Assembly: GCA_030527105.1 (NCBI GenBank)
Contig: JAUNBK010000001.1
Location: forward strand, 1-64,000
DNA: 64,000 nucleotides
Direction of reading: 5' to 3'
Source: Planctomycetia bacterium
GTDB lineage: Bacteria > Planctomycetota > Planctomycetia > Pirellulales > Thermoguttaceae
Below are positions 9,258 to 51,163 of this stretch, piece by piece. Position 1 is the stretch's first letter. Each line of letters opens with the position of its first letter. A program made the position numbers and the translations under genes. A model generated the notes under the pieces. The model saw only the letters and a program-made list of their open reading frames with translations. It searched no databases and had not been told where the DNA came from.

Positions 9258-9959
9258 ATGAGTTACGGTATCATGACAGCAGAGGAACTTTTGGAGGTTT
9301 TGAAGGTCTCTAGAAAGTCACTGCATAGATTACGAGAGATGGAAGGGTTTCCTGCTCCTGCGCGGGTAGGTAATATCGTAAGGTATGACGGAGATGCGGT
9401 AATGCGTTGGTTTATGTCACAGAAGAAAGACAGTAATAGTATTTCCAGGCATAATATCTCAGGAGAGGTTGTTATGGCTGGAAAGAATAATGATGGCGAG
9501 TATGTGTTTATCGATAATGCCAGTAATCAGATACAGTCTGAGTATGCGCAGATACTGGCTAAAGCATTGACAGGCGTTACCGGGGGTGTTGTGTCACACA
9601 TGTATGTAGCTTATAACAATGACGCGGCTCCTACGGCGGATGCTTTTGATGTGTCGGATGGTGTTGAGTATTTTGTGAATTTGACGGGGAGTAAGGATTT
9701 TATTAAAGTGCCTGTTATTGTTCTTCCGTCTAAGACTGAGGATTCTTCCAGGTTTCAAGTAATTGTAGGAAACAGTGTAGGCTATAGAGGTCTGGTATTT
9801 AATGAGTCTTCGTGGGTTTATTGTATTGCTCTAGTTGCAGAAACTGCAAGTGACGATGTTACCAGAGACAAAATATTTGCAAGATTGAATTGGACGCCAC
9901 CAAGACAGAAAACAGCAGATCAGTTGAGTATTGACTGGACTATTAAATTTACAGAGTAA
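9258..9959 (+). CDS. HTH_17-type DNA-binding domain fused to a phage virion-like domain
   Basis: A protein of 233 residues with AAAGGAG seven bases before the ATG. Residues 1-52 match an excisionase/MerR-like helix-turn-helix: TAEELLEVLKVSRKSLHRLR, then FPAPARVGNIVRYDGDAVMRW. Residues about 73-233 are a beta-rich domain (MYVAYNNDAAP, FINLTG-like strands, IFARLNWTPP) of the kind seen in phage structural proteins; I do not recognise the exact family. An internal ATG (9474, residue 73) has its own AGGAG at 9461-9465, so the C-terminal domain may also be made alone. It is the first gene on the phage side and ends at a strong bidirectional terminator. The HTH may act in lysogeny or excision control. 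Confidence 0.65.
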   Translation: MSYGIMTAEELLEVLKVSRKSLHRLREMEGFPAPARVGNIVRYDGDAVMRWFMSQKKDSNSISRHNISGEVVMAGKNNDGEYVFIDNASNQIQSEYAQILAKALTGVTGGVVSHMYVAYNNDAAPTADAFDVSDGVEYFVNLTGSKDFIKVPVIVLPSKTEDSSRFQVIVGNSVGYRGLVFNESSWVYCIALVAETASDDVTRDKIFARLNWTPPRQKTADQLSIDWTIKFTE

Positions 9960-18889: not shown

Positions 18890-21223
18890 TCAGAGCAGTT
18901 TTCGCTTATCAGGCGGTGCGATAGCCCCTGTTAAACCAAAATCACTATCCCCGAAAGCCAACGCGGGGACGTAACTGGAGCCTTCGGTGTAGCTGGTGCC
19001 GCCTCTTCGGGCAGACTCTAACACGCTGGATTGTTGGTATCCGCCTAGCATTTTCGTACCCCAGTCCGGGTCGTTAGCCACGTGAGCCATTCCGCGAACC
19101 ATTTCCGGCTCAAAGGGTGGCGGGTCTTTGTGCGCATAAACATTTTTCACACCGTAGGCTTCCAGTTCTTTAACGACAGAGGGTCGTAATTTGGTTCCTA
19201 CCGTGTAATGCAACACCGGTTTTTCCAGGTATCGATTGGTCAGTTGCTTGGGCGCCCCCTGCATGAAACCTTTACGCGGTTCCCAGTTGTGCGTTACCAT
19301 GGCGTAGGGGAGTACGTCATCAGGTACATAGTCGCCTAATTCATCGGTAAGACGTACATAGCTGATAAGACCTCGGCTGAGTGCTTCCAGATTACGTCGA
19401 TGTACGGATTGCCCCGCGTTTCTTAGAGCGGCTTGAAATTGATTGACAAAAGCTCTTCGGCCTTCGCCAATTCCTTTATACTTCACTACCATGGCAGGAT
19501 TGGGAATGCCGTCGGAAATTACATCCCCGGCTTCTACAGTATCACCAGGTTTGACAAGCAGATCAATGTCCGTACCTTGTTGTTTTCCTACATAGTGACG
19601 CACTCCGTTAATATAAACATACTTTCCACCCTGTGGAGCGTCTTCAATTTTACCAATAGTTCCATCTTCCGTAGCATGAACCGCACCATGCTTGAATTTT
19701 TGAGGTACTTGGATCATCTGATTCAGATATTCAAAACCAGAGATGGTTTTTCCTGCTCCGACAACACCTCCCGTGTGTTTGGAATTGGAACAAATCATAC
19801 CGTTGGCGAGCACAAATAAATGGTCTGGATGATCTACCTCAATGTCCATTGTTTCCAGTTCGCCAACATACATCTGGTCTTGCCGTGTCAGAGCTTTTTG
19901 TAGTTTATCATCATGTAAATACAGAAGGTTATCAGACAGTAAACCTATGGGAATCTGCTTATTGGTATTGTCAAGTACTCCAAGGAATCTATGTTCCAAG
20001 GTAGAAGCTACTGTAATATAACTTCCTTCCGCTATTTTATAGGTGGTAGAGTAACAAGATTGTATGCCATTATGGAAAATGTTGACAACCTCTACCGGGA
20101 ACGTACCGCCCTCTGTGTTGGAGCCAAGTACATAATCCCCTATAGCAATATCTCTGAGTTTTTTGACAGTATTATCTGCCATTCGGACAGTCGTGTTTGG
20201 GTGCAGGCAGGAGATAGAACTTTGTGTGATAGGTTCCGTTACTGCTTGTACCGCGGATATGCCTACAAAATCTCCGATAGCCGGACGTGTTCCCGATTCC
20301 CGCAAACCAGCATCGTAAGAATAAATACCACCGTCTGTCGGTCCGCCTACGGTTACGGACCTGACCAGAATTCTTTTATGTCCTTTGGAATCCAGGTCTT
20401 GCAGTATTTTCGGTGTGAGTAACGTGTTTCTCGGATAACCACCTACAGGGTGTGCCAGATACGCACCCTCATTACCCTCATCCATAGTATCCGCCGGGTA
20501 GCCTCTTGGGTTTGTCTCGTCGTAAGGGTCTGGATCGTCGTCCGCAGTGACAACTTCCCTGTGAGCTATTTGCACCAATTGTTTGGCAAGAAAACCCGCG
20601 TCGGCAGTCGCTTTCTGCAAGTCAACACCGCCTTTGCGCGCACCGTAGGCACCTGCAATGTACTGCACAGGAGTCAAGCCCTTTCCATAACCGCGTGTAA
20701 TAGGTACAGGCACAGGACGGCCTTCCGGGTCTTCGTATAACAAGTCCGCGCCAACGATAGAGGTGTAGGGAACCACTTTATTTCCCAGGGTACCGGTGGC
20801 CTGATGATACAGAGGTGATTCTTTGCGCTCTTTGAGAATCTCTTGCTTGATAATAGGTTGGTATTTAAGGGTGTTTTGAACGATCTCTTTCTGTACTCTG
20901 GGGTCGTCGCTCAGAACTCTCTTTTGATACCATTTAGCGAGAATCTTCTCTGTTTCATCTTCAATACGGTTTCGGATAGCTTCCATCGCTTTGATTTCCG
21001 CCGCGTCGGATACCGAGAAAGACTGTCCGCCTGTAAGGTAAGCAGCCTCCGCGCCGAATTTAAGGATTTTGTGAGAAATTTCCTTAAATTTGTCAGGATG
21101 TTTCCGTGCCAACTCTGTCAAAACTTTGGATGTTGTTTTAGAGTCCCATACACGATAATCATCTCTCATATCATCCGGCAACATCTCGTTAAGTATCACA
21201 GAGCCTACCGTTGTTTCCGTCAC
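18890..21223 (-). CDS. RNA polymerase beta'-like protein with an in-frame mini-intein
   Basis: 777 residues, about 635 after splicing. It matches the C-terminal half of bacterial beta' (RpoC): residues 175-225 (ITRGYGKGLTPVQYIAGAYG, then ARKGG, then TADAGFLAKQLVQIA) correspond to the bridge-helix region. VRSVTVGGPTDGG (288-300) and GDFVGISAVQAVTEPITQ (317-334) lead into the trigger loop, which resumes as SKHTGG (481-486). GEGRRAFVNQFQAALRNAG (586-604) corresponds to the conserved VNEVQKVYR region, and LGGYQQSSVLESARRGG (726-742) to the late-beta' segment. The zinc-binding Cys of beta' are lost, and the NADFDGD catalytic barrel is not in this protein. It overlaps the portal gene by four bases. 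Likely one subunit of a split phage polymerase or a virion derivative. Confidence 0.88.
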   Translation of the reverse strand: MTETTVGSVILNEMLPDDMRDDYRVWDSKTTSKVLTELARKHPDKFKEISHKILKFGAEAAYLTGGQSFSVSDAAEIKAMEAIRNRIEDETEKILAKWYQKRVLSDDPRVQKEIVQNTLKYQPIIKQEILKERKESPLYHQATGTLGNKVVPYTSIVGADLLYEDPEGRPVPVPITRGYGKGLTPVQYIAGAYGARKGGVDLQKATADAGFLAKQLVQIAHREVVTADDDPDPYDETNPRGYPADTMDEGNEGAYLAHPVGGYPRNTLLTPKILQDLDSKGHKRILVRSVTVGGPTDGGIYSYDAGLRESGTRPAIGDFVGISAVQAVTEPITQSSISCLHPNTTVRMADNTVKKLRDIAIGDYVLGSNTEGGTFPVEVVNIFHNGIQSCYSTTYKIAEGSYITVASTLEHRFLGVLDNTNKQIPIGLLSDNLLYLHDDKLQKALTRQDQMYVGELETMDIEVDHPDHLFVLANGMICSNSKHTGGVVGAGKTISGFEYLNQMIQVPQKFKHGAVHATEDGTIGKIEDAPQGGKYVYINGVRHYVGKQQGTDIDLLVKPGDTVEAGDVISDGIPNPAMVVKYKGIGEGRRAFVNQFQAALRNAGQSVHRRNLEALSRGLISYVRLTDELGDYVPDDVLPYAMVTHNWEPRKGFMQGAPKQLTNRYLEKPVLHYTVGTKLRPSVVKELEAYGVKNVYAHKDPPPFEPEMVRGMAHVANDPDWGTKMLGGYQQSSVLESARRGGTSYTEGSSYVPALAFGDSDFGLTGAIAPPDKRKLL
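19784..20209 (-). other. Mini-intein (Hint domain, no endonuclease) in the beta'-like trigger loop
   Basis: 142 residues (339-480 of the host protein). Block A begins with Cys1 in CLHPNTTVRMADNTVKKLRD and GDYVLG. Block B carries T-x-x-H in STLEHRF. Blocks F and G are near VDHPDHLFVLANGMICSN, with the terminal Asn followed by Ser as +1 residue. The penultimate residue is Ser rather than the usual His. No DOD or HNH endonuclease is inserted. Removing it joins ITQSSIS to SKHTGG, the same length as the uninterrupted bacterial trigger-loop motif, which supports accurate splicing. Confidence 0.9.
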
Positions 21224-23205
21224 ATCCCACCTCCGCCACCGAATTGCTGTTGTAAAACCATGTCACGTCCCTGGGACGCTGCGTTACGTCGGATTTCTTC
21301 GATCATATCTTTCACGAGAGGGTGAAGTTCCGGTGCTTGTTTCTCAAGCTCGATTAGATGGCTGGCGGTATTTCCCTGCATGAATAATTGCGCCAGTGTC
21401 CGCGCTTTCTGGTACATCTTTGGCAAAGGATCGCCTGGCTGATAGCCAGTTTGTGCGATCCAAACAGACACAGGGTCTTGTCCAGGCATAATACCAGGAG
21501 CCATAGGAGGAGCAGCCCCTGCTTGCATGGGCATACCTTGTGCTGGCATACCTTGTGACATATCCGCTCCTCCAGCCATAGGCATACCGCCAGCCATAGG
21601 CATACCGCCAGCGCCTTGTTGTAGTGCCGCCATTGGACCTCCGGGAGCCGCGTCTGATAGTTGTTGTGTAGTTTCCATTAACTCTTGCAATTTGTTTTGT
21701 TGTTCCACCTCGTCCAATTGTTCTTCCATACGTCGTCGGACCTCTTCTTTGTAATTGACTCCGATAGATTCCAAGGCTGTTGTATTGGACATGACTGGCG
21801 AACCAAGCAACTGCAATTTCTGTACTTGTTGATTCAGGTCGTCGATAAATTTAACTGCAATATATTTCGCATTGACAGGCTCCCAACCCAGTAACGCACT
21901 TACACGTTTAACTACAAAAGCCAAAAATTTATCGTAGGAGCTTACAAGTCTTGACCAATAAGAAGAGAACAGTCGCAGCGCTACAGGAGCGACTTGCAGG
22001 GACAGACTTCCTTTGTATAACTCTACAGGAATACCCGCAGAGGTTAAAAAGGTGTCTAAGGTATAGTCCAACAAATCTCTGGGCAATAACTGTGTAGCGT
22101 CACCGCCAAAATACTGATACTGTAACGCACAAGGTGATATATGCCAACTATTTGGATCTTTCCTGCGATTCTCCAGCATAGCTTTCACATGCTCACGAAA
22201 AGAAGCGCCTTCCACCTTGAACACAGGGTCTACAGCCGTTGTATTTCCTGTCGGTGGTGACAATACACGCAAAGGAGACAACGCCTCTTTTGTAATCATT
22301 TCCACATGCAAGTGCAGACTCTGGTGCAACCAGGCATATCGGAAATTGGCAATTGTTTCCGGTATACCCCATCCTTCTGAATTTATACCGGATAGCGTAG
22401 ATGTTTTCAGGTGGAGAATGTTATCTTTGTCAAGCTGTATATATCCGCCATCTCTGGCTGCCTCTAAGACTTCTTGCGGTGCTGTCTCCAACACATGGGG
22501 GGTTCCTTGTTCCAGTAAAGAAATGTAATCTTTGGGCAGTCGCCACAGAATAACGTTCTTTCCTGTGAAGTCGTCATGCAAAATCTCAATGTCGTGAACA
22601 TTCCAGCGTTTGATGTACACATCCGACATGCTCTTGGAGTCGTAATCAATTACATTCCATTCGTCAGAGTAGCCACAATAAGGACATGTTGCTGTAAATT
22701 TCCAATTTTTGAACTTAAATTGGTAGTTAGAGGATTTATCCAGTATCTGAGTAATGGGTGCTTGATGAGAGCAGTTACTTCCGTCTTTATTCTTTCCACG
22801 ACACTGCAACCATCTCTCAAAGGAGATATACACACTGGCAAAAGCATTCCCGTATGTAAGTAAGTCCATACCGATATTAAGCGTTTCGTCATTTATCGAC
22901 AGATAAGCGCTTGACAAAATACTGAGATACCGTTGTCGCGTATCTTTTCCGCTCAGAATCACATCATCAGGACCGTCTACAATCTCTGGCTCTGTGATAA
23001 AAAAAGAGCAAATACGCGATAATGCAGCACGGTACACCCCTGTAACCGATACGATATACTCGCTCCAATCTAATGCCTCATCCATTGTGGTAGGCATGTG
23101 CATGGAGGCCAGGTCTACATACGGATTATGATAGTTACTGTTACCGTTTTGTGCTATTTTCGGTGTTATACGATTTTCCCATAGACGGATTGCTGATCTT
23201 TGCAT
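21220..23205 (-). CDS. Portal protein (probable)
   Basis: 661 residues. Features fit phage portals: an N-terminal region with an Asp-rich helix, YLSINDETLNIGMDLLTYGN (about 103-122) and a central beta wing. Then comes a helical crown with TLDTFLTSAGIPVELYKGSL near 400, and a long C-terminal helical tail with a Met/Gly/Pro-rich low-complexity segment (about 530-590). An unusual insertion carries four Cys (QCRGKNKDGSNC and CPYCGY, about 140-195), which look like a zinc ribbon. It would form the dodecameric DNA entry ring. It sits between the Met-rich small genes and the beta'-like gene, with which it is translationally coupled. Confidence 0.7.
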   Translation of the reverse strand: MQRSAIRLWENRITPKIAQNGNSNYHNPYVDLASMHMPTTMDEALDWSEYIVSVTGVYRAALSRICSFFITEPEIVDGPDDVILSGKDTRQRYLSILSSAYLSINDETLNIGMDLLTYGNAFASVYISFERWLQCRGKNKDGSNCSHQAPITQILDKSSNYQFKFKNWKFTATCPYCGYSDEWNVIDYDSKSMSDVYIKRWNVHDIEILHDDFTGKNVILWRLPKDYISLLEQGTPHVLETAPQEVLEAARDGGYIQLDKDNILHLKTSTLSGINSEGWGIPETIANFRYAWLHQSLHLHVEMITKEALSPLRVLSPPTGNTTAVDPVFKVEGASFREHVKAMLENRRKDPNSWHISPCALQYQYFGGDATQLLPRDLLDYTLDTFLTSAGIPVELYKGSLSLQVAPVALRLFSSYWSRLVSSYDKFLAFVVKRVSALLGWEPVNAKYIAVKFIDDLNQQVQKLQLLGSPVMSNTTALESIGVNYKEEVRRRMEEQLDEVEQQNKLQELMETTQQLSDAAPGGPMAALQQGAGGMPMAGGMPMAGGADMSQGMPAQGMPMQAGAAPPMAPGIMPGQDPVSVWIAQTGYQPGDPLPKMYQKARTLAQLFMQGNTASHLIELEKQAPELHPLVKDMIEEIRRNAASQGRDMVLQQQFGGGGGM

Positions 23206-23314
23206 GGTTAATAGCTTTCTTTGTACGCTCCGCGAGATTACTTACAATGTCATCTTCCGATTTTGTAACATTGTTCTCCTCTGACAGCTTTTTGAACACG
23301 CCGGTCTTTTGCAT
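23141..23314 (-). CDS. Small overlapping protein upstream of the portal gene
   Basis: 57 residues, MQKTGVFKKLSEENNVTKSE onward, ending NTENSTKR. The ATG at 23314 has AGGAG seven bases upstream. Its last 65 bases overlap the portal coding start (23205) in another frame. Hydrophilic, probably helical. An overlap this long may couple its translation to the portal. Function unknown. Confidence 0.6.
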   Translation of the reverse strand: MQKTGVFKKLSEENNVTKSEDDIVSNLAERTKKAINHAKISNPSMGKSYNTENSTKR

Positions 23315-23333
23315 AGTGTTTCTCCTGACATTT

Positions 23334-23351
23334 TTAGTTATTAATAACTAA
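23334..23351. promoter_or_regulatory. Perfect 18-base palindrome
   Basis: TTAGTTATTAATAACTAA, located between the stop of the Met-rich gene and the ribosome site of the small portal-upstream gene. The same palindrome, extended to 20 bases, recurs at 53400-53419; an imperfect copy is at 63838-63855. Probably a protein-binding site. Confidence 0.6.
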
Positions 23352-23353
23352 TT

Positions 23354-23827
23354 TTAGTAACGATTCAGCACACTACCCCAAGGGTACAACGCCTCGCCAT
23401 TTTGTGGTTGTGTAATGTGTTTGTAGTTGGATGTCTTCATTCCTTCTGTGGGAAGAGGACCACCTCCAGGATCGGATTCACTCATATCTCCTGCCTTTGG
23501 TTTGATAAGCGCATCTACTGGGGCGCTTAAGTTAAGCGCGTTCATAATAGCACCGAGCATAACGTTAATGTCGTACAATCTACTCTCAATTTGTGCAAGC
23601 ATCTCTTCTGGACGCTGCTTTTTGGGCTTATCTGCGGTAGGTGCTGTCGGAGGCATTCCCATCATAGACGGATCCGTAGGTGCCGTCATAGGAGGTGCCA
23701 TGGGTGTTGCTCCGCCCATCATAGAGGGATCCATTGGAGGCATACCTCCCATCATAGAGGGGTCCGTCGGAGGCACAGGCACAGCAGCTTGTTTATTATA
23801 GGGATAACGATAGTTTGTACGATACAT
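23354..23827 (-). CDS. Met/Pro-rich repeat phage protein
   Basis: 157 residues from ATG 23827 (AAGGAG upstream); an earlier start would add an implausible hydrophobic leader. Residues 18-60 contain tandem units DPSMMGG, MPPM and DPSMMGGATPMAPPM. Residues 70-105 form a helix (RPEEMLAQIESRLYDINVML). The Met/Gly/Pro style matches the low-complexity tail of the adjacent portal protein. First gene of the portal block, divergent from the tail block. Role unknown; possibly a minor head protein. Confidence 0.6.
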   Translation of the reverse strand: MYRTNYRYPYNKQAAVPVPPTDPSMMGGMPPMDPSMMGGATPMAPPMTAPTDPSMMGMPPTAPTADKPKKQRPEEMLAQIESRLYDINVMLGAIMNALNLSAPVDALIKPKAGDMSESDPGGGPLPTEGMKTSNYKHITQPQNGEALYPWGSVLNRY

Positions 23828-23921
23828 GAAATTCTCCTTATCAATGAGTTTGAGATAGTTATTAAGAAAGTATAATAGGCATAATAAGAATGTGCAAATT
23901 AACTTTAACAGGGAGAAAAGT

Positions 23922-24236
23922 ATGGCACATACAGATTGGAATGTCATTAACTCGTATAGGGATTATCCTTTCTGCCCTACAGATAACAGTAATTTACCTA
24001 GTGATGCTATTCTGGATTGTAAATTTTTTATTATAAATCCAGAGATATTACCACCAAAAGTATGGTTGCATTCCTATCTAAAGGAAGAATCCAGAAGAAT
24101 CTTCGTATTTAAGAATACAGACAATCAGGAAATGACATTTTATGTTCCAGATTCTGAGGAGTGGCAATGTATCTGGAATACGAACGATCCCGCGTGGTAT
24201 GGTTTTGTAGTGTTTGGAAAAGCGGAGAATAGCTGA
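23922..24236 (+). CDS. YPF-motif baseplate/tail protein, small
   Basis: 104 residues from ATG 23922 (GGGAG upstream). It opens with a motif shared by two other proteins here: SYRDYPFCPTD followed by LPSDAILDCKFFI. The protein at 46608-47306 has NTKYPFEDTATL followed by LPETLFLDGTFY, and the one at 47314-48252 has RSYPLAE followed by LPDDFLLAL. This shared N-terminal module suggests that all three dock in the same way on the baseplate. It is the first gene of the rightward tail block. A TATAAT lies at 23871-23876. Confidence 0.6.
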   Translation: MAHTDWNVINSYRDYPFCPTDNSNLPSDAILDCKFFIINPEILPPKVWLHSYLKEESRRIFVFKNTDNQEMTFYVPDSEEWQCIWNTNDPAWYGFVVFGKAENS

Positions 24237-24237
24237 C

Positions 24238-26832
24238 ATGGGTTTGAATGATATGTTCTCAGATGCGTTTAAGCGTCTTAATAAAATAGAACAGGATGTT
24301 TCCTATACAACAGACGCATCCGTGTCTGATCCGATGAATATACGAACCAGCCAGATAGCGAATACTGGCAATTCTGGAGTAAATGTCTATGTCGGAACTA
24401 TCACGGATACGTGCCCGTCGATGCACGCATACCGTGTATCTGTGCCCGGAGCAGGTATCTATGTATGCGGTGTGTGCAGTTTTGCTGGAGGCGACACTCG
24501 CGTTAGTGCAGGGTACTCTCCAGGAGACCAGGTTATTATCATTAACTTGGCGGCAGATCAGGGTATTATACTTGCTAAAATGCCAGATGTCGCAGAGTAC
24601 GGTTCCGCAGAGCCTAGAACATGGGTAGGTTTGTCGGATAGTTATAAAGCGGACGCACTACAGAAATCCTATACAACATCATCAGGAGATAAAGTATATT
24701 CTCCATCCTATACTTCAGGGTCGCCTGTAAATAATACAGACGTAGGTGAGTTTATTGCAGGAGGCATACAAGGAACGCAAATTTTTGTAGACCCTTATAT
24801 GGCTTATATGCGATCTACGGATATGACAGGTGTATGGGCGTTTGTAGAAGATGCCATGTTACGTGTAGGAGGGCATAATTATCAACATATCACAGCTGGA
24901 AGTTATTCAGAGCAATTCAATGACAATGGGGAATGGATAAGCTATACAGGCTATGCGGCTAATTCGTGGGAACCTTACGGTTACTACACAAAACCTTCTA
25001 AAGTTATCAAGACAGAAGATACGTGGTATAATTCCGAAGAACCTTCTGCTTTCTGGGAGCCGGAGAATAAAGAATTATTGCCGTGGTATCGTTATGCGGA
25101 GTATAAAGGTTATCCAGGTATGCAAAGTTATGTATTTGCGGCTCCTGAAAGTAAAAATGAACGAACAGGCAAAGAAATGGATATGCTTGGCTTGTCGCAA
25201 GTAACACAGTTAGCTGATGGGTTTGTAGGTGTATCCTCTGCCAAGGGTATTTCATTAACAAAACGGTCTGTATTTCCTGCAATACAGAAGCTGAAATCGC
25301 CAGATGATCCTGAGGGCGACACGGCAGATAATTACGATTTTGAGCATTCCGGCTTCAAACACAAAGGAGAGCCGGATTATACAGCGACGGATACCGCCAA
25401 AGTAATGCAGTCCACAATGGGTGTATTGGATTACAGTACTTACACTTCTAACTATAAATCACTATATCCGTTTTTGTATCACAGTAAAGATTATGCGGTT
25501 GTTGAGAATTCTGAGATACCTGTAGCGCCTGTCAATTGGAGTAAATGTGTACAACAGTTACAATCAAAGCAGTACGCAGATCCGCCAGAAACTTACACTC
25601 GTGATATTGATGGGGAAGAACATAAGTTTTATATTGCTGAGGCGGGTTTTCATTTATTGCCGGATGGTGGTGTCATGATTCATGATGGCTATGGCGCTGC
25701 CATAACTATGTCTGGTGGGAATATAACTCTGACTGCTCCCGGAGATATTTCCATCAGACCCGGCAGGACTGCTGATATTTGGGCTGGGAAAGATATTATT
25801 CTTAAATCTAAAAAAGCTGTGGATGTCTCTTCCACGGAGTCTTCTGTACGTATCAAAGCGGAAAGAAACCTGGAAATGCTCGGAGGAAACTGTGGGTCTG
25901 GAGCAGGTGTGGTTATTGAGAGTAAGAGTCACGGAGATTACGATTTTGCCCCTGGAGGGGATAAAGTTACTACGAATGGTATTGTTCTAAAATCCGAAAA
26001 CGGTGTTGTTGCCGCTCTTGGCGGTACTGTATATGTAAACGCCAGTAAACGAGGATCAGGTATTTTGTTGGATTCTGGCAATGGCACTCGACCTATTTAT
26101 ACAGCGTCTAACATAAAGCAGGATTATGTGAAAAGTCGTCATGATCTTGTTTTTGGTGATGTGTCTAATGGTCGTGTATATGCGACACAGACTTCTACAC
26201 GGTACGAGTCAACGTTTCCAGGTAATATTTCATGTAATGGTACAACGACAACAAAAGGTTCTTTGTATGTGGATGGTTATATTATGGGAGGGAAGCACAT
26301 TGCTACTAAACAGGCAGAATCTAACCCTTATGTGAGTCCTTTGAAAGACAAAGCGGCTACTGCATTCGATACGGTCGTTCGCGACTCTGTAGAAAGAATT
26401 ACAAAAGACAGACCTAATGAGGTGAAAGATACTCATTCTTCCAATATAAAACCCTCTTTTTATGCTGCAAAAAAAATCGGAAACGCAGATACTATAGAGC
26501 AGACAGAGTTTAGTTTTCGACGCGATGATGAATTAGACTTGACGGATTACAGAGTATATGCCAGTTTTTGGCAAACGGTAAGTCCTGACGCTGGAACAGT
26601 ATGGAAAGAAAAGCAGGTTAAAACGTATTCTGGTGAGGGAACGTATCCTTATCCAGGTAAAAAATATACAGAGGATGAGGATTGTTTTGTAATACAACCT
26701 CTTAAATTATATAAAAATGGTATAGCGGTCGATAGGTGGGAGCAGAACTCTCCATCAGAAGTCTATTCCGAACCGGAGTATGCTGAGCCGCAAAGTAAGA
26801 AACTGGAGCAATATCGTATTACAGGAGCATGA
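24238..26832 (+). CDS. Tail spike / baseplate central needle protein (gp5/VgrG-like)
   Basis: 864 residues from ATG 24238, directly after the previous stop. N-terminal helix (1-30), then an OB-fold-like beta domain (about 45-125, with VYVGTITDTCPSMHAYRVSV). After a long middle region comes a beta-helix-like stretch (about 475-640), with repeats such as DGGVMIHDGYGAAITMSGG, NITLTAPGDISIRP and ADIWAGKDIILKSKKAVDVS. This is the pattern of T4 gp5-C and VgrG spikes. The C-terminal 200 residues are mixed. No lysozyme motif is evident. It would form the membrane-piercing tip of the contractile tail. Confidence 0.72.
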   Translation: MGLNDMFSDAFKRLNKIEQDVSYTTDASVSDPMNIRTSQIANTGNSGVNVYVGTITDTCPSMHAYRVSVPGAGIYVCGVCSFAGGDTRVSAGYSPGDQVIIINLAADQGIILAKMPDVAEYGSAEPRTWVGLSDSYKADALQKSYTTSSGDKVYSPSYTSGSPVNNTDVGEFIAGGIQGTQIFVDPYMAYMRSTDMTGVWAFVEDAMLRVGGHNYQHITAGSYSEQFNDNGEWISYTGYAANSWEPYGYYTKPSKVIKTEDTWYNSEEPSAFWEPENKELLPWYRYAEYKGYPGMQSYVFAAPESKNERTGKEMDMLGLSQVTQLADGFVGVSSAKGISLTKRSVFPAIQKLKSPDDPEGDTADNYDFEHSGFKHKGEPDYTATDTAKVMQSTMGVLDYSTYTSNYKSLYPFLYHSKDYAVVENSEIPVAPVNWSKCVQQLQSKQYADPPETYTRDIDGEEHKFYIAEAGFHLLPDGGVMIHDGYGAAITMSGGNITLTAPGDISIRPGRTADIWAGKDIILKSKKAVDVSSTESSVRIKAERNLEMLGGNCGSGAGVVIESKSHGDYDFAPGGDKVTTNGIVLKSENGVVAALGGTVYVNASKRGSGILLDSGNGTRPIYTASNIKQDYVKSRHDLVFGDVSNGRVYATQTSTRYESTFPGNISCNGTTTTKGSLYVDGYIMGGKHIATKQAESNPYVSPLKDKAATAFDTVVRDSVERITKDRPNEVKDTHSSNIKPSFYAAKKIGNADTIEQTEFSFRRDDELDLTDYRVYASFWQTVSPDAGTVWKEKQVKTYSGEGTYPYPGKKYTEDEDCFVIQPLKLYKNGIAVDRWEQNSPSEVYSEPEYAEPQSKKLEQYRITGA

Positions 26833-26833
26833 T

Positions 26834-27913
26834 ATGGAAAATGTAGATTATGATGAGTTGGATTTGAGTATTCTGGAATGTAACGTACATCTGAATAGTG
26901 AACACCCGGAAAACGTACCTCAAGTGGTAATGCCTGGCACACTGGATTTGCTGAAATCTGTCGGATGGGAAGAAGGGCAGAAAATACCTGGAGGATTGTC
27001 GAAGTATTTGTCTGCTGTACTGGAGATTCTTGGATTGTCTGCAACAAAGAAAAACATCAAACTGGTTATGTCCAATAAAACGGTGCAACATTCACTTAGA
27101 ACCAAGTTGCAAAATATGAGGGATTTGCAAAACATAGATAATATAGCTAGACAAGCTGCTTCTGATATTACCAATATTGACCCATCTAATATGACCGATG
27201 CGCAGGAGGAGATATTTAATGTTGCCATGTCTAAAGTATTGCAGGACACGCATAAAGATTTGACATCTATAGATATAAAACCTGTAACGCCGGATAAGAA
27301 GGCGGTAAGCGAAGAACAATCAACAGAACCAGAGCAAGAGGAATCCAGCAAAGAATCTGTAGATGTGTTATCGCATCACTATTGTCCATGTTGCCACTGG
27401 AACTTGGATAAGGAATATCCTGAGGATGCGATAACAGAGAGTGATGAGAAGGCGTATCTGGCCTATATTCTCGGAGGGAGTACGTTTTATAAGACTTATT
27501 CTATATGGAATGACGCTGCAAGGGTTACTTACCATGTTTTAACGACAGAGGAAGAAGAGCAGATACAGGACCAGATAACTCGTGATTATCACAGTGGCAA
27601 GTGTAATCTGGTTTACCAGATGCACGCACTGGAGTCAAAATATAAAACAGCTTTGTCGGTTGATAGTGTTGTATTTACACAGGGAAGCATAACTTCTCCC
27701 AGGTTGCCTAGGTGGAATAGTAGTATTATTCAACCAGAGGAAGGACAGACTCGTATAGAGGCGTTCTATACACAAGGATTTTGTAAAACGTTTCCTGCAA
27801 AAACGTTACAAGATCAGCTTATCACTAAGTGGAGGGTATTTCAAAACCAGCTTACGTTGCTGGAGCATAGGCTGTTCTCTAAGGATTTTTGGGAAGGGCT
27901 GACCATGCAATGA
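26834..27913 (+). CDS. Zinc-ribbon tail/baseplate assembly protein
   Basis: 359 residues from ATG 26834 (CAGGAG upstream). It is mostly helical with a Glu/Ser-rich linker (about 165-190) and a zinc-ribbon-like HHYCPCCHWNLD near 192-204. It lies between the spike and the tape-measure candidate, where T4-like phages encode gp26/gp51-type baseplate hub assembly factors with similar Cys motifs and others encode tail chaperones. Either role would fit; I prefer hub assembly. Confidence 0.5.
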   Translation: MENVDYDELDLSILECNVHLNSEHPENVPQVVMPGTLDLLKSVGWEEGQKIPGGLSKYLSAVLEILGLSATKKNIKLVMSNKTVQHSLRTKLQNMRDLQNIDNIARQAASDITNIDPSNMTDAQEEIFNVAMSKVLQDTHKDLTSIDIKPVTPDKKAVSEEQSTEPEQEESSKESVDVLSHHYCPCCHWNLDKEYPEDAITESDEKAYLAYILGGSTFYKTYSIWNDAARVTYHVLTTEEEEQIQDQITRDYHSGKCNLVYQMHALESKYKTALSVDSVVFTQGSITSPRLPRWNSSIIQPEEGQTRIEAFYTQGFCKTFPAKTLQDQLITKWRVFQNQLTLLEHRLFSKDFWEGLTMQ

Positions 27914-28254
27914 TGATACGGTCTGCCGCGTTACGCGGTCTGGATTACAGTCATGGCAGCCCTAAAACACGTCAATACTGGGACAGGATTCATCTAATTA
28001 CCAATGATTTGCAATCCCTGAATTGCAGTATTGTAACTTTTTTTGATGCGATGTATTTAATAGGAACAGTTGATCCTTCCGACAGTCAAGAAATCCTACG
28101 CCAGAAAAGAGATAAATTAACAGATTATTTGCATTGTATAGTAGACAAGTCTGCCTCTGAGACACCAAGTGGTGTAGGCGATCCGACTATACAACGACTT
28201 ATTAAAATTCTGGATGAGATTAAAAGTACACATGAGATAGATAATAATGAGTAG
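27910..28254 (+). CDS. Small phage tail protein, possible assembly chaperone
   Basis: 114 residues from ATG 27910, which overlaps the previous stop (ATGATG); GGAAGGG lies just upstream. Helical and soluble, with a Cys-bearing helix (DYLHCIVDKSASETPS). Directly before, and overlapping by eight bases, the tape-measure candidate. Position suggests a tail assembly chaperone. Family not recognised. Confidence 0.5.
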   Translation: MMIRSAALRGLDYSHGSPKTRQYWDRIHLITNDLQSLNCSIVTFFDAMYLIGTVDPSDSQEILRQKRDKLTDYLHCIVDKSASETPSGVGDPTIQRLIKILDEIKSTHEIDNNE

Positions 28255-31200
28255 TTCTTTTACATTACAGTTGGGAGCGTCTGCGGACGCCTACGGTTTG
28301 CCGGACAAGTTGTCATTCGGGGAATCTAAGAGCGGTAGTGCTTTTAAGTGGATAGAAGAACAACGAAAAGTGCTTGATAATGATTTAAGTTACTACTCAA
28401 AAGGTTATTTTGAGGCGAAAGTTGCTCTGTGTGACCTTGTAATTAAAAAAGCAACTTTTGCTTTTCAACAGTATCAAGCACAACACAGTTCCGATGCTGA
28501 TACAACAAAGACTGTCGTATTTAATGCCTGGCTTGCAGAGATGAACTCACTAAAGAATGAGTTTAACAGGGCTAGTTTTAATGATAGTGTACAAGAAGAT
28601 GACGGAACATCGGAATTGATCGGCAGAGGTTTTTACAATGCAGATACAAGAGAGTTGTTTGTTAATGAGCCAGGTAATGTGCAATACGGTACACTACAAG
28701 GAGATCAGTACGTATTGCGCAGGCTATCCGGGCGTAAAGCCAATGACCCGGAAAGTGTAGCAGCGTTCGATCTTGCAAACCGTAATATAGCATCTGCGTA
28801 TGATTCTTTTTCCACATATGGTGTATCTTCTCTAAATGATGCTGTCAAGGCAGATATTGCTTCCGCTGCTGGAGGTCTTAGAGGGTATCAGAAAGTTCCT
28901 GACAGATATTCTGATGAAGAGATAGCCGCTACGTTAAGCAATGCTGTCACAGAGGCTGCTACTGTACGTCATTTGGAAGATACCAGCGATACAAAGAGTT
29001 CCGAGTATGTGGAAGCCAGACAACGGCTTGACGGGCTGTCTGCTACATTGGCCTCTCATAGATTAGGTATCTCTACAGATACGTTCAAAAAATTAAAACC
29101 AGAGTCCAAACATCAGATCGTTACACAGTTTGCACGAGATGTATTACGTGTGGAAGATTATAATAGCAGACAGACGAAATTTACAGATAATCAGGATTTG
29201 CTGGACAGTGTTTTATCGTTTTTTACTGTCAAACCAAGGTTGTTATATTCTCCAGTATACAATCAGACGACGTTATATGATTTAGGTCGTTATGACAAGA
29301 GCACAGAGGCGTATGGTGCGTTGTCGGAAATAGCAGATTCGTCTGCGTCAGAATTGCTGTCGAAGACATTTAGACGTTTTGGTCTGGATATAGAACCTGA
29401 TTTGATTGCACCTATGTTACGTCCCATCCGCAAGGTATTTGCCTCTGGTAAATGGAGGCAACAGATGGCTGGTTCTGAGGTAGACCCTGCTCTTTTGGAT
29501 ATGATAGAAAGAGAGGTATCGGCAGCTTTATATGGTACAGACGGCAATCTGAGCCAGATATATGATGTTTTGACATCTTTTGTCGTCAATAAAGATGACT
29601 TTGATTCGATGTATAAAGTAACTATGGCTATGCCAGAACTCTCACAGGGGATCAGTTATCGGGATATTGCCAGAACTTTGAGACACCAGGCATTTTCTCA
29701 AGGAAGAGATTTTGTAGCGAGTGCAGGACGACGAAGTATGTCTGCCTTGAGGCAGTATCAAACAGATGATCGCATGGATGAGATTAAACAATATATTGTA
29801 GATTCTCTGGATTCTGATCGGTTGGATACTGCTGTGGATTTAAGGAGTGGAGAGTTTTTAGTGTTACAGGACTCTATTCGCGGTATTCGTGAGCAAGATA
29901 AGAATATATCTTACACGGATATGGCGACGCGATTAAGTACTGTGGCTGGAAAGAGAATTTCTGAGAAACAGGCAAAAGAGTTTGAAAGGCTTGCAAGTAT
30001 TCAATATGTCACAGGTAGGTTATCTGAGAGTCCGGCTTTAACGTTGGAAGATATACAAAAAGAATCACCTTTCAGAATAACTGAGGATATTCTTAATGAT
30101 AGTAGAGCTTTGTTTTCTAACAGAAAGCAGGCTCTTGTTATGCTTGACTGGTTAGCACGCGCAGGGGACGACAAGACAGCGGAAGAACTTAAAGAGTTCG
30201 TAAAAACCAATATGCAGACACCGGATTCTCAAGGGCGAATGGAGACATTTGACGAGAATGTATATACTGCCATACTAGACCGTCTGGCTCAAGGAGTGGG
30301 TGCCGTTGAGACAGGAAGACAGATATATTCTGCTGCCAATAAATATGTTACGTTGGAGAATATGGCAAAGTCTGTAGGCGGTTACAGGGAGCTTGTGCAG
30401 GCGTCAGGAGGTTCTGTATCGGCAATGGATGCCTGGATTACGGCTGTGTTTGGTAATCAGCAGTACAGGTATCAGGATGCGGATATTATGCTTGCTGCGG
30501 CTATGCCTCTACAAACAGCATTTGAAACACGTACCAGCATGACAGATATGATTCGTATGTTTGGTGCTACCAGTAATTTTATGCAAAAGAATGGTACGGA
30601 TAGTGTATTTACTCCTCTTGCCAATACGCTGGCTTCTTCTCTGTATCAGGCACGCTATGCACAAATGCAAGAATCAGGAATGCCTATTGATAAGGCAAGA
30701 TTAGCAGCAGAGACAGCGGAAGTGTCTGCTAGTGTCGCGGGCGGAGTAGCCGTAAGAAATCTTGTGTTGCTGGATAAAGGACGCTTTGCAGAGGGGTCTG
30801 CTATGGCAGGCATACAGGAGCGTTACAGAGCGGGACGACTTACAGATGATGATAAAGCCCTACTGTCCGATTACTCTTTATTCAACGAGCAATATAGGCG
30901 GAGCGGAGGCCAGGAAGAGTATATGACGCAAGCCTCTGTGGAGGGTTTTGTCAGGGATATGTCAGCAGCAGAGGCTTCTCGTCTTGGGGTTACTGCGGCA
31001 TCTGTAGATAGTGCCAGGTATCTGGATGATTACAATGACATTATGCGTCGGTCGATCGATTCCGAGCGATCACAATGGAATCGTATAACAGAGGCGTATG
31101 CCGGTATAACAGGACTTGGTAATTATACGGCAGAGCAATTTATTTCCGATAGAGATAAGATTGCAAGACGTCTTGGAAGTACCCGACGAGCAACCGAGTT

Positions 31201-32089
31201 ACTGACTAATACAGGCAGTCCGTTAAGTGAGGAAGAGGCAAAACTGATTGGCGATAGCGCTCTTGTAGGTAGATTGCAGGCTATATCGAAAGCCAAAGAC
31301 TTTGCCGGACAAGATGTACGGGACGAGATAACATCATTACAGGCTAATATTAACAATCAGTATCGTTCTTATGTAGATATGTCGAATGAGGCGTATGACA
31401 GAGCCGTGGCTCTTGAGGATACTTCCAGAATAGAGACAGACAATCGTATACGTGCAGATATTATAAGCAGACTAAAAAACTCTAAAGCAGACCAGGCTAT
31501 CCTTTCTCGGTTTGCAGAAGAAGGTTTCCAAGCAGCGTTGAAAGCTGGGATGGGGGATAACTTACCGACTTCTAATGAACTTATAAAACAACTGGATAAC
31601 GCAGATGAGGCGTTTGTCCAAAGTATGACTCTGTCAGATTTTGATGACTTCTGGGCAGACGACAAATCGGAATCCTTAAGGCGTAGCTTGTTGGATGCGG
31701 CTGTAAACACAGGAATAGTATCTCCAACAAGTAATTTTGAGGAATTAAAGAGCGTTATCAGACGCCGCCCTGAAAAGGCTAGTTTGCTTAAAATAGAGTA
31801 CGAGCGGTCACAATCCAGTCGTACTTTAGCCACGGATTTTGTGCAGGCTTTAAGTGGTGATGATGGCGCACACGTAGTTACGCCAATATCAGATACAACA
31901 GGCGCGGCAGGTACAACTACAACAGTAGAACCTCTAACGCCTTCTGTAGAACCACCGACAGCGAGTACCGTAGGCGAGATACCTGTATCCAAAGCAGGCA
32001 GTACGGAGCCTCTTGGACCAAAGGGAGTTAAGACGGATCCCGTGTATGTCTATGTTTTGAATGGAGAGACTGTCACTGCGACAGCTTAA
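28247..32089 (+). CDS. Tape-measure candidate (long helical virion protein)
   Basis: 1,280 residues, the longest protein in the window. Nearly all helical and rich in Ala, Ser, Asp and Arg with repeated R/K-x-L/Y heptad-like spacing. No clear transmembrane segment. A Thr/Pro/Gly-rich tail lies near 1,215-1,280. It occupies the tape-measure slot between tail assembly genes and the hub gene. If so, a tail near 190 nm would follow from about 1.5 angstrom per residue. The absence of hydrophobic segments is atypical, so an internal virion protein is the alternative. Confidence 0.5.
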   Translation: MSSSFTLQLGASADAYGLPDKLSFGESKSGSAFKWIEEQRKVLDNDLSYYSKGYFEAKVALCDLVIKKATFAFQQYQAQHSSDADTTKTVVFNAWLAEMNSLKNEFNRASFNDSVQEDDGTSELIGRGFYNADTRELFVNEPGNVQYGTLQGDQYVLRRLSGRKANDPESVAAFDLANRNIASAYDSFSTYGVSSLNDAVKADIASAAGGLRGYQKVPDRYSDEEIAATLSNAVTEAATVRHLEDTSDTKSSEYVEARQRLDGLSATLASHRLGISTDTFKKLKPESKHQIVTQFARDVLRVEDYNSRQTKFTDNQDLLDSVLSFFTVKPRLLYSPVYNQTTLYDLGRYDKSTEAYGALSEIADSSASELLSKTFRRFGLDIEPDLIAPMLRPIRKVFASGKWRQQMAGSEVDPALLDMIEREVSAALYGTDGNLSQIYDVLTSFVVNKDDFDSMYKVTMAMPELSQGISYRDIARTLRHQAFSQGRDFVASAGRRSMSALRQYQTDDRMDEIKQYIVDSLDSDRLDTAVDLRSGEFLVLQDSIRGIREQDKNISYTDMATRLSTVAGKRISEKQAKEFERLASIQYVTGRLSESPALTLEDIQKESPFRITEDILNDSRALFSNRKQALVMLDWLARAGDDKTAEELKEFVKTNMQTPDSQGRMETFDENVYTAILDRLAQGVGAVETGRQIYSAANKYVTLENMAKSVGGYRELVQASGGSVSAMDAWITAVFGNQQYRYQDADIMLAAAMPLQTAFETRTSMTDMIRMFGATSNFMQKNGTDSVFTPLANTLASSLYQARYAQMQESGMPIDKARLAAETAEVSASVAGGVAVRNLVLLDKGRFAEGSAMAGIQERYRAGRLTDDDKALLSDYSLFNEQYRRSGGQEEYMTQASVEGFVRDMSAAEASRLGVTAASVDSARYLDDYNDIMRRSIDSERSQWNRITEAYAGITGLGNYTAEQFISDRDKIARRLGSTRRATELLTNTGSPLSEEEAKLIGDSALVGRLQAISKAKDFAGQDVRDEITSLQANINNQYRSYVDMSNEAYDRAVALEDTSRIETDNRIRADIISRLKNSKADQAILSRFAEEGFQAALKAGMGDNLPTSNELIKQLDNADEAFVQSMTLSDFDDFWADDKSESLRRSLLDAAVNTGIVSPTSNFEELKSVIRRRPEKASLLKIEYERSQSSRTLATDFVQALSGDDGAHVVTPISDTTGAAGTTTTVEPLTPSVEPPTASTVGEIPVSKAGSTEPLGPKGVKTDPVYVYVLNGETVTATA

Positions 32090-32099
32090 TGGAGCTAAT

Positions 32100-32573
32100 A
32101 TGACGCAATCTGTTTTACTGAAATCCACTCCAGGGAGTGCAAGTTATACCCAGGCAGATAATCCTTTGTTTACATTACATGTACGCACAGGGGATTCTGA
32201 CATGGATGAACTGCTTGAGAAGGGTAAATACATCGTTACCGCTATCAAAATAGGTGAAAATGATAATTTGCAGGCGGTATGTACCCTTGGTTCCGATATA
32301 TACTATTATCTTACAGGTACCACCCCTGTTACTATGGAATTATCTGGTGTATTGTATTTTCCAGGTTGTGATGGACAAGATGCAAGTACGTTTGTGAGTG
32401 CAATCAAAAATACTTGGGATACATACCGCGTAAGTAAGTATAAGAAACCTATCCGTTTGTTGCTTGATGAAGTTGGTTATTGGTTCTACTTACAAAGCGC
32501 ACAATGGAATCCCGTCTCTGCGTCAAGTGAGTTGACAACTTTCTCCTTACGAGGAATAGGGGAACGCAAATGA
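32100..32573 (+). CDS. Tail/baseplate protein upstream of the hub
   Basis: 157 residues from ATG 32100 (GGAG upstream). Beta-rich (TLHVRTGDSD, YIVTAIKIGENDNLQAVCTL) with a central PGCDGQDASTF. It overlaps the hub candidate by four bases. In Mu-like order this slot holds a protein linking tape measure and hub. No motif is decisive. Confidence 0.5.
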   Translation: MTQSVLLKSTPGSASYTQADNPLFTLHVRTGDSDMDELLEKGKYIVTAIKIGENDNLQAVCTLGSDIYYYLTGTTPVTMELSGVLYFPGCDGQDASTFVSAIKNTWDTYRVSKYKKPIRLLLDEVGYWFYLQSAQWNPVSASSELTTFSLRGIGERK

Positions 32574-34213
32574 ATTTTAGGGCATTAAAGGTCTCTCTGT
32601 GTAAGTTGCAGGGGGATAACCCCTCTAAAGCCTCCAGAGGGGAGTTTATCGGAGAGATTATCAGTGCTGCATTGCACTGGTCTCTGAACACAATACCTAC
32701 TGCTACAGTAGTACTGCCGCTAGGCGTTAAACTGACGAGCGATGCGACAAAACCTGAATCTTCTTATGTGTATGCAAAGATAATGCCTCTTATTATGCAC
32801 AGAGAGCCGGTTGGTCTGTTTTTAGATATTGAGGTACCGGAGCACGATACACATAATATAGACAATAGAGAACTTCCCTATAATAAACGAATTTGTATCT
32901 TTAAGGGATACATGGATATGCCTGCTATCCAGCTTGGTACGACTAATACATATATGCAGGTACAGCTGACTCACTGGCTGTGCGATACTGCCATTTTCCC
33001 TCTGCTTCACAGGCTGTCACACCCGGAAAATCCTATGGATTACGCTACACATGCCATGTACGGAATTGGCAGTGTAGATACTTTTTCAAGCTCCAGTAAC
33101 GGATTTAATTGGATTCCAATAATTGATGACATACACAAACATATTGAGGGCGGTAAAGTATTCACAGCGATCAAAACTACATTTCAGCATTTCATAACGG
33201 AAGGTAACACCAAATTATCGGATAAAGACCCTGGACACATATCGACTGATTTATTAAACAGAGAACAGTATGCTCTGGATAGTATTATAGAAGACAGTTC
33301 CGCTACGCTGTCAGAAGCCTTAACAGGAAATGAAATACGGCTTTCTATACATAATATACTTGCAAATAAAGAAGCGGAAAAGGGGTATTATGCGACTCCA
33401 TGGAGAAAACTTACAGGACAGTTGTTGCCCCTGTTTTTATTGTCGTGTGTGCCTATGGTAGATAAGGTTATGGTTATACCATCTCCAGGAATTGCCATGA
33501 AGTCGATTAATCCTAAGATTATCAAAACAGATAGCATAGTGCATTATTCCTCTTCTAAAAAATTGTCAGATACATTAGGGTATATGATAGCTGCTCCTAA
33601 CGCTTCCATGTTCTCACGTGTCAATCGTACCAATATAAATACAGTATTACTGGCCTCAAAATACCCTGAACAACCAAAACCAGGTGTTGGAAAAGTATGC
33701 AATATACCTGCATGGATCGTACCTCCAATGCTGTCTAATACGGTACCTGAAACGGAGATCAGGGCAACCTCTGAAGATGCTGTTTCTATAGCAGAGCAGG
33801 ATAATAAGGAGCAGGAAGATAAGATAAATAAACAAATAGATGTAGCTACAGACTGGATTAAGAAATACACAGCTACTATGTATGGTTTGGAGGTTTTAAG
33901 ATACAATTCTGCCAATATACGAACGGTGTTACGTTTTGATTTGTTGCCTGGCTCTGTTATATGTATAGAGGAGGTGTCGGATATATTGGCAAAAGAAGAG
34001 GCAGTACCGAAACAATATGGAACAATTGCGGAGACCGTTATTTCGCTGTCTAATAATGGCGTTTCTACGGATATTAAGGTTATCAATATGCGTACTGAGG
34101 AGCAGTTAAAAGACGAGGACATTACACCATCCGGCAATCTGGTATATAGCTCTGCGTGGAATGCTGTTGATAGTTACTTATATTCAGATGAGGAGGAGTT
34201 AACAAATGGCTAA
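32570..34213 (+). CDS. Baseplate hub candidate (gp27/gp44-like)
   Basis: 547 residues. The first 190 are beta-rich, with HWSLNTIPTATVVLPLGVKL resembling the opening strands of hub proteins that carry a tail-tube-like fold. Later parts are mixed, with a KQY/E-rich helix (about 400-430). It lies after the tape-measure candidate and in the same operon as the spike it would hold. Overlaps the sigma-like gene by eight bases, which ties that gene to tail expression. Identification is by fold pattern and position only. Confidence 0.5.
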   Translation: MNFRALKVSLCKLQGDNPSKASRGEFIGEIISAALHWSLNTIPTATVVLPLGVKLTSDATKPESSYVYAKIMPLIMHREPVGLFLDIEVPEHDTHNIDNRELPYNKRICIFKGYMDMPAIQLGTTNTYMQVQLTHWLCDTAIFPLLHRLSHPENPMDYATHAMYGIGSVDTFSSSSNGFNWIPIIDDIHKHIEGGKVFTAIKTTFQHFITEGNTKLSDKDPGHISTDLLNREQYALDSIIEDSSATLSEALTGNEIRLSIHNILANKEAEKGYYATPWRKLTGQLLPLFLLSCVPMVDKVMVIPSPGIAMKSINPKIIKTDSIVHYSSSKKLSDTLGYMIAAPNASMFSRVNRTNINTVLLASKYPEQPKPGVGKVCNIPAWIVPPMLSNTVPETEIRATSEDAVSIAEQDNKEQEDKINKQIDVATDWIKKYTATMYGLEVLRYNSANIRTVLRFDLLPGSVICIEEVSDILAKEEAVPKQYGTIAETVISLSNNGVSTDIKVINMRTEEQLKDEDITPSGNLVYSSAWNAVDSYLYSDEEELTNG

Positions 34214-34931
34214 TATGTTGGAACCAGAATTACAGGAAGTGTACCAACAATGGAAGATGTACCCAGGACCAGAGACGAACGCTATGTTGGCGGCTAAGTT
34301 ATCTCCGTGGATTTCGCAATCTGTTGTAGCGGCAGGAGGAGACCCTAACAACAAAGCGTTACTTGCCAAGGCACGTATGATGGCAATTGCCAGTCTGAAC
34401 AGGTACAATCCAGAACAGTCCAATATGAAAAATTTCTTGTATGCACAATTACGTGGTTTACATCGTGTTGTGGGCAATGACTCTAACATTATACAAATGC
34501 CGGAACGTATGGTATTAGGAAGAAAGACTATAGATGAGGCGGAAAAAGAGTTGTTAGAGGCACTTGGACGATACCCATCATCTTCAGAACTGGCAGATAA
34601 AACAGGTTTTTCGATTAAACAGATAGAGAAATGGCGGCATGTCAATCTCCCTACAAATGCAGGAGGAGACATAGCAGATATGCCTGGTATGCAGAGGACA
34701 TCTAATCAAACAAAAGCAGATGAAGCATGGATGGAATATGTGTATGATTCTATGCCGGATAGACGTAAAGCAGTTATGGAGCGTCTGTATGGTATGCACG
34801 GATACGATCCTCAGAAGGCTGTAGAGGTGGCTAAACAATTAAAAATCTCTCCAGTATCGGTAAGCCAGCATAAGAAAGAAATTGATAAATTGCTGTATGA
34901 TGATTCGCAGTATTCGTTGTTTGGAGATTGA
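34206..34931 (+). CDS. Sigma-70-family-like RNA polymerase sigma factor
   Basis: 241 residues. Region-2-like helices (about 48-90: ALLAKARMMAIASLNRYNPE, then FLYAQLRGLHRVV) lead to a region-3-like segment (about 115-150: LLEALGRYPSSSELADKTGF, SIKQIEKWR). The C-terminal region-4-like HTH (about 180-232) reads MPDRRKAVMERLYGMHGYDP, then AVEVAKQLKISPVSVSQHKKE. The usual aromatic promoter-melting residues of region 2 are weak. It would direct RNA polymerase to phage promoters. It is fused into the tail operon, overlapping the hub candidate, so it is probably made late and may be packaged or may act with the phage beta'-like protein. Confidence 0.75.
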   Translation: MANMLEPELQEVYQQWKMYPGPETNAMLAAKLSPWISQSVVAAGGDPNNKALLAKARMMAIASLNRYNPEQSNMKNFLYAQLRGLHRVVGNDSNIIQMPERMVLGRKTIDEAEKELLEALGRYPSSSELADKTGFSIKQIEKWRHVNLPTNAGGDIADMPGMQRTSNQTKADEAWMEYVYDSMPDRRKAVMERLYGMHGYDPQKAVEVAKQLKISPVSVSQHKKEIDKLLYDDSQYSLFGD

Positions 34932-51091: not shown

Positions 51092-51131
51092 GTAGCTTTT
51101 CATTTTATGATTATAATCAGTGAAAAGCTAC
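51092..51131. promoter_or_regulatory. Nested inverted repeat before the 733-residue gene
   Basis: GTAGCTTTTCA (51092-51102) pairs with TGAAAAGCTAC (51121-51131). The loop contains the perfect palindrome TGATTATAATCA (51108-51119). It covers an ATG at 51107 that lacks a ribosome site, so it favours the later start at 51164. Could be an operator or an RNA structure controlling the gene. Confidence 0.55.
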
Positions 51132-51163
51132 ACGATAACTGGTTTTTGCAAGGATTGAAAAGA

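Follow-up and report, generated by a model that had tools for sequence, protein, structure and literature searches.

Multisubunit RNA polymerase (RNAP) genes are known from several groups of phages. In the phiKZ/AR9 group, beta' is split after the catalytic barrel, at a site common to cyanobacteria, and virions carry one of the two enzymes (PMC7598289). The mReC phages (multimeric RNAP-encoding Caudovirales, Weinheimer and Aylward 2020) are represented by contigs that encode both beta and beta' (PMC7481178); a word search of its main text finds no mention of inteins, sigma factors, a split or a fused beta.beta'N, and 'fused' once, of crAssphage. Virion proteomics of Salmonella phage Arash gave the most spectra for gp206 (3516), with 1210 for gp216 and 467 for the sigma factor gp10; according to that study, highly expressed proteins may also have been carried over into the preparation (PMC10585845). 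The locus described here lies in a window of 64,000 nucleotides, positions 1-64,000 of contig JAUNBK010000001.1 from a Planctomycetia bacterium (Thermoguttaceae; assembly GCA_030527105.1); all coordinates are contig positions. It encodes the C-terminal half of a beta' subunit (beta'C) with a mini-intein in its trigger loop, a portal protein and a sigma-70-type factor. These genes sit in an integrated element of ~63 kb, from 9016 to ~72022 of the contig, and the partner subunit beta.beta'N (beta fused to the N-terminal beta' half with the catalytic barrel) was not found in the assembly.

Inteins are known from cellular RNAPs, where they occur in archaeal rPol A' and A'' and in eukaryotic RPA2/RPB2/RPC2 (PMC1635734). 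Gut 'Jug' phages have inteins and an rpoC-like gene, and the accessible text places no intein in rpoC (PMC12363816). The available portions of PMC12619734, PMC7824862 and PMC13282480 contain neither an orphan beta'C nor an intein in a multisubunit RNAP of a phage, and searches of an open literature library listed no such report, judged by title and start of abstract.

A model working from the letters alone had proposed a beta'-like gene overlapping the portal gene, and this is borne out. The end of the portal gene runs 4 bp into the start of beta'C, and a GGAGG motif lies just upstream of the start codon, inside the end of the portal gene. RNA_pol_Rpb1_5 (PF04998) matches beta'C above its cut-off (E-value (E) 3.9e-15), spanning 445 residues for 252 profile positions. 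NCBIfam rpoC matches at 9e-42, and solved PDB beta' chains match from 2.6e-25, in an alignment that runs through the bridge helix and trigger loop. A structure model of beta'C adds little: its mean predicted local distance difference test score (pLDDT) is 47.7, it is confident only at about residues 510-710, and Foldseek returns bacterial beta' chains with low template modelling scores. A match of the Arash gp7 profile to beta'C was taken as profile drift.

Relatives were gathered by homology scans and carry L (locus) or G (genome) labels; L208 (IMGVR 3300029705_000023, 187,654 bp), L071 and others come from IMG/VR phage records. In a tree of 16 phage and 30 host rpoC rows (29 loci of the relatives search and the host's own copy), beta'C joins G397, G410 and G407, with a Shimodaira-Hasegawa-like approximate likelihood ratio test (SH-aLRT) support of 100%. 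One branch, also with SH-aLRT 100, parts the 16 phage rows from all 30 host rows, although the tree was built quickly and its branches are long. In 99 relatives the matches, apart from the window gene and its host's own copy, have the range of host rpoC. Judged by sequence, beta'C is phage and not host transcription machinery; host derivation was ruled out, as the 30 host rows lie far from it in the tree. The second zinc-binding cysteine set of the Arash clade is absent from beta'C of the element, G397 and G410, and is on this comparison a clade feature rather than decay.

The trigger loop is interrupted by a 142-aa insert with the ends of an intein. Cys is its first residue and Ser-Asn its last, Ser follows, and the insertion is precise and in frame; the DnaE intein chain also ends in Ser-Asn. 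The exact site is decided by comparison, because uninterrupted orthologues join S to S there: G397 and G410 read TQxQIS/SKHSGG and the intein-free G407 orthologue SQSQLS/SKHSGG, against TQSSIS-(C...SN)-SKHTGG here. In alignments to PDB beta' chains, S481-K482-H483 correspond to T-F-H of the bacterial trigger loop. Profile matches are weak, with Hint at 0.0017 and NF038136 at 1.6e-6 (both below cut-off) and TIGR01443 at 0.1; PDB intein chains match at 0.011-0.07, DnaE intein chains being at 0.011. The length leaves no space for an endonuclease domain. Among 46 related beta'C loci, three have a related intein: that of L252 is at the same junction, and those of L207 and L249 lie three residues later, after SKH. 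The L207 intein is 389 aa long and may hold an endonuclease. The unusually long beta.beta'N open reading frames (ORFs) of L245, L246, L249 and L251 contain seven inserts of at least 60 aa, several with intein-like ends, as candidate inteins; one sits directly after the catalytic DFDGD motif in L251. In L287-L289, L292, L310, L311, L313 and L319 the beta.beta'N matches are ~1 kb or more longer than usual, possibly through more inteins. Neither the mini-intein (339-480) nor the integrated setting of the genes had been noticed in the original prediction.

Single-sequence scans (beta'C in viral and genome contigs, portal in viral contigs) gave no relatives; alignment-based scans did. A tblastn search of phage records with beta'C (E 0.01) gave 25 matches, with Arash and three phages of Vibrio among them; some of the rest have no annotation or are labelled as bacterial rpoC. 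Arash gp206 (PF00562 2.8e-56, PF00623 6.1e-16) and its homologue in Vibrio phage D69 are beta.beta'N proteins, and gp216 is beta'C. The relatives' beta.beta'N ends near position 550 of E. coli beta', and beta'C begins near 572. By homology of its virion module, the element belongs to the lineage of ~180-205-kb myophages that includes Arash and D69. The mReC phages are probably the same group, and the IMG/VR relatives found here are very probably included in them. A possibly new lineage of virion-carried or late polymerase had been proposed for this locus: virion carriage is supported by homology to the Arash proteomics, whereas the lineage itself is already known. Neither is the enzyme of the suggested phiKZ/AR9 type, given a sigma-70 factor and relatives that fuse beta with beta'N.

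The two polymerase halves usually occur together. Of 46 related beta'C loci, 42 also carry beta.beta'N close by, L212 breaks off at a contig end, and L208, L248 and L252 have none within 8 kb. Twenty records were picked from 33 portal relatives, and four of them have beta'C; the same four have beta.beta'N, and the other 16 are often fragments. The arrangement also varies. In L071 (4559-11734) a single ORF of 2392 aa spans beta, beta'N and beta'C. In L058, L060, L066 and L072 the beta.beta'N homologues appear as two ORFs, a further split, and at L068 only one piece lies within the locus.

The sigma gene has Pfam matches to Sigma70_r3 (5.1e-7) and r4 (0.0051), and a six-member sigma profile reaches PDB SigA chains at 1.6e-17. 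Its place in the tail operon is shared by the element with Arash, G397, G410 and G408. The original prediction had it overlap a hub candidate. The overlap is real (8 bp with the upstream tail gene at 32570-34213); the hub label is not supported for that gene, and a VgrG/DUF2345-like protein is a better candidate (Table 1).

Integration of the element is concluded from matching 14-bp repeats, host homology up to the left border and host-like G+C outside. The right repeat copy is at 72009-72022, beyond the window; in random pairs of 250-bp windows, a shared 14-mer occurred in 10 of 40,000. Nucleotide homology to a same-genus genome stops at 9019, i.e. at the left repeat, and host genes flank the element on its outer sides. 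G+C (5-kb bins) is 0.38-0.45 across most of the element and 0.47 in the 10-15 kb bin, against 0.46-0.53 outside and 0.53 at the host rpoB/rpoC loci. In the same-genus genomes compared for an empty site, contigs end near the site. Since the assembly is of metagenome type and consists of 210 contigs, the contig could be a chimaera of host and phage DNA. This is very improbable: the two genes left of the element are syntenic and 72-75% identical in the same-genus genome, short matching repeats stand at both ends, and a second same-genus assembly (G007) has a 48% identical portal beside an integrase-like and a xis-like gene. The portal is present in only two of 396 genomes of the order, this one and G007. 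The integrase-like ORF at the G007 locus (L073) was labelled from its sequence. L073 matches the contig clearly only in the portal, the xis-like gene and a SocA-like gene; its portal is followed by a series of unknown phage-like ORFs (L073:11793-17090).

The catalytic NADFDGD barrel and beta are indeed missing from the window, as the original prediction stated. Its suggestion that they lie beyond it fails: neither was found in the whole contig (115,958 bp) or assembly. Arash gp206 as query found only host rpoB/rpoC, at 3.6e-38, which serves as a control. Over the assembly, PF00623, PF00562 and PF04997 match host copies only; PF04998 matches the host copy, the beta'C gene and a third stretch on contig C118, far below cut-off (E 0.345). 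Other RNAP-like genes in the full phage had been named as the check, and there is none in the element, while the relatives carry both halves. TerL is also missing, with no match in the element to Arash- or G397-derived profiles; as a control, the Arash profile recovers TerL from each of the four related genomes tried, at 2e-29 or better. Arash TerL as a single query finds nothing in the assembly, which shows little by itself. Of 45 other ORFs of the element, none matches an integrase, TerL or polymerase family at E 0.01, the L073 integrase has no significant match on the contig, and no replication genes, DNA polymerase among them, are present in the element. An assembly that is 93.9% complete in 210 contigs may miss a gene, and the halves are close together in most relatives; the element or phage could therefore own a beta.beta'N, in a gap or on a separate replicon, and form a complete enzyme. 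This appears unlikely. The element is contiguous between its two repeats, with host sequence outside, and orfX, which follows beta.beta'N in relatives, here stands beside the portal without it.

Catalysis is impossible without beta.beta'N from the element alone, so that the genes must be explained by supply in trans, a virion role or decay. Decay would mean that recent deletions removed the early region, TerL and beta.beta'N of a temperate phage of Arash type, leaving beta'C and sigma as leftovers not yet mutated. The absence of TerL, beta.beta'N, DNA polymerase and integrase from the element fits this, as does the rarity of the portal in the order. Against it, the reading frames of beta'C and of the named virion genes are open throughout, and the genes have been reordered, with portal and beta'C now tightly joined. 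Nor is there evidence of faster evolution in beta'C than in its neighbours. Among 18 proteins for which G397 and G410 both have an orthologue, beta'C has the highest identity to G397 (53.2%). Its divergence relative to the G397-G410 distance is 2.48 (median about 2.2), rank 11 of 18 from the lowest, which does not clearly set it apart as relaxed relative to neighbouring proteins. Its end branch in the tree measures 1.33; the three sisters have shorter ones, of 0.2-0.29 plus a shared 0.66. Finally, the arrangement is common to L208, whose gene order is portal, beta'C, o23, o22, o21, as here. Between the element and L208, beta'C is 69.4% identical (dN, the non-synonymous distance, 0.25) and the portal 47.0% (dN 0.52); dN/dS was not calculated since synonymous sites are saturated. 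L208 also has homologues of the integrase-like and xis-like ORFs of L073. It differs in having no intein in beta'C and an extra ORF between portal and beta'C, which we take, from its sequence, to be methylase-like. Beta.beta'N was not seen within 8 kb of L208 beta'C, and the L208 record was not recovered in two beta.beta'N scans, each of the best 80 matches only, that jointly recovered 38 of 42 known carriers; this is suggestive but no proof. The data favour maintained constraint on beta'C, and decay after a recent loss is a possible but less favoured account.

The best explanation is a virion-carried polymerase half that needs a partner in trans or now has a virion role only, with a probability of roughly 50%. 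A reduced, chromosomally integrated relative of Arash-type myophages would keep the late virion module, beta'C and the tail-operon sigma. Portal and beta'C would be translated as a coupled pair, and the mini-intein is predicted to splice the precursor, restoring the trigger loop. Virion carriage is plausible because beta.beta'N, beta'C and the orthologous sigma of Arash were found in virions; by this analogy, the particle probably contains beta'C and sigma. The polymerase would be active only if a related phage supplied beta.beta'N in trans, and otherwise beta'C may be kept for its place in the virion. This explanation is favoured by the identity and phage origin of beta'C, the exact intein site, the integration and the missing beta.beta'N and TerL, by beta'C being the best conserved of 18 proteins, by the family and place of the sigma and by the arrangement in L208. 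Several points weigh against it. Most relatives have beta.beta'N near beta'C, so the element may be defective through losing it recently, and an element without TerL and replication genes fits a dying prophage. The L208 record could carry beta.beta'N beyond the reach of both scans. The structure model of the intein alone (pLDDT 31.8) supports nothing. A wider proposal is more tentative: this element and L208, as one lineage of integrating elements, may have given up the catalytic half of RNAP and kept the trigger-loop half, here gated by splicing, under purifying selection, as a virion part or for completion in trans by the beta.beta'N of a related phage. Polymerase assembly would then be an interaction between two viral genomes.

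Table 1. Features of the element within the window (contig positions; values are E-values unless marked otherwise)
Feature	Position	Strand	Evidence
Left copy of 14-bp direct repeat, putative attL	9016..9029	+	Exact 14-mer, only 2 occurrences in contig
xis-like HTH_17 domain fused to virion-module protein	9258..9959	+	HTH_17 1.3e-5; residues 67-231 match G397_187118, 1.2e-12
Major capsid protein, HK97 fold	10671..11690	-	blastp Arash gp226 1e-17; NF042927 5.1e-7 (below cut-off); G408 homologue 2.5e-59
beta'C precursor	18890..21223	-	777 aa, GTG start; 635 aa without intein
Mini-intein, beta'C residues 339-480	19784..20209	-	142 aa; C339...N480, next extein residue S481
Portal protein	21220..23205	-	blastp to annotated Arash portal gp204, 3e-56; 48% identical portal in same-genus genome
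orfX, homologue of gene between beta.beta'N and beta'C in relatives	23354..23947	-	G397_146542 profile 3.3e-12
Baseplate protein, VgrG/DUF2345-like, better hub candidate	24214..26832	+	DUF2345 4.8e-4 (below Pfam cut-off); G397_171047 profile 6.8e-137
Tail-operon protein upstream of sigma	32570..34213	+	G397_180315 profile 3.3e-23; no Pfam family at E 0.1; PHROG 0.038
Sigma-70-type factor, orthologue of Arash gp10	34206..34931	+	241 aa; gp10 profile hmmsearch 3.9e-12; G410 homologue 4.5e-43
Tail sheath protein	35940..38882	-	PHROG tail sheath 4.9e-18; D69 homologue 3e-29
Baseplate wedge protein, gp6-like, Arash gp13 family	45083..46585	-	PHROG baseplate wedge 2.4e-18; gp13-family profile 6e-16 to 6e-18
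Homologue of Arash virion protein gp218	51107..53365	+	hmmsearch 9.5e-19; G410 5e-68; adjoins beta'C in most relatives

The remaining features are mostly those of the late virion module (Table 1). From G397, a 197-kb relative, 226 ORF profiles were made; 31 match inside the element at E 0.01, nearly all from the late virion region (two appear antisense and three fall on one ORF). The tail sheath protein has a long N-terminal extension relative to the PHROG family. An accessory block (53421-63814 in the window and 65432-66742 beyond it) encodes a Macro domain, an AbiEii-like AAA protein with a STAS-like domain, an AAA_21 ATPase, a toxin-antitoxin-like pair of DUF4411 and M78, and a SocA/Panacea antitoxin-like gene. 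In L073, a homologue of the Panacea gene with 49% identity lies beside the portal.

Through this element, a phage polymerase lineage that has received little study is connected with a group of bacterial hosts and with integration. Inteins are placed in the moving catalytic part of a phage RNAP. One half of a multisubunit polymerase is retained without the other, a natural case that makes testable both the role of virion-packaged polymerase halves and sigma, and the exchange of halves between phages.

In comparison with Arash (OQ632216) and the Vibrio phages D69, D148 and D181, portal, capsid, sheath, tail-operon sigma, gp218, gp219 and gp221 are homologous, and beta'C is split at the same place. 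Those phages, however, have genomes of ~180-187 kb, whereas this is a 63-kb integrated element without beta.beta'N and TerL. In Arash and D69 beta.beta'N adjoins the portal; here the portal is directly beside beta'C. Beta'C of Arash and the Vibrio phages has no intein. The mReC phages are tailed phages known from metagenomes, and their beta/beta', of cellular type, form a clade separate from cells; beta'C of the element also stands apart from host rows. Unlike them, the element, as well as the assembly, encodes only beta'C besides host rpoB/rpoC. Their capsid is of PF07068 and their TerL of PF03237, while the capsid protein here has no Pfam match at E 0.05 and TerL was not found by profiles. 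With phiKZ/AR9 the lineage shares the split of beta' after the catalytic barrel; no record of these phages is among the 25 tblastn matches of beta'C at E 0.01, their genomes not having been searched with profiles. The phiKZ/AR9 phages also split beta and encode no homologue of sigma, whereas a sigma-70 factor is present here and relatives fuse beta to beta'N. Inteins of cellular RNAPs lie, as here, in the most conserved sites of the large subunits; here the gene is a phage gene and the site is the trigger loop.

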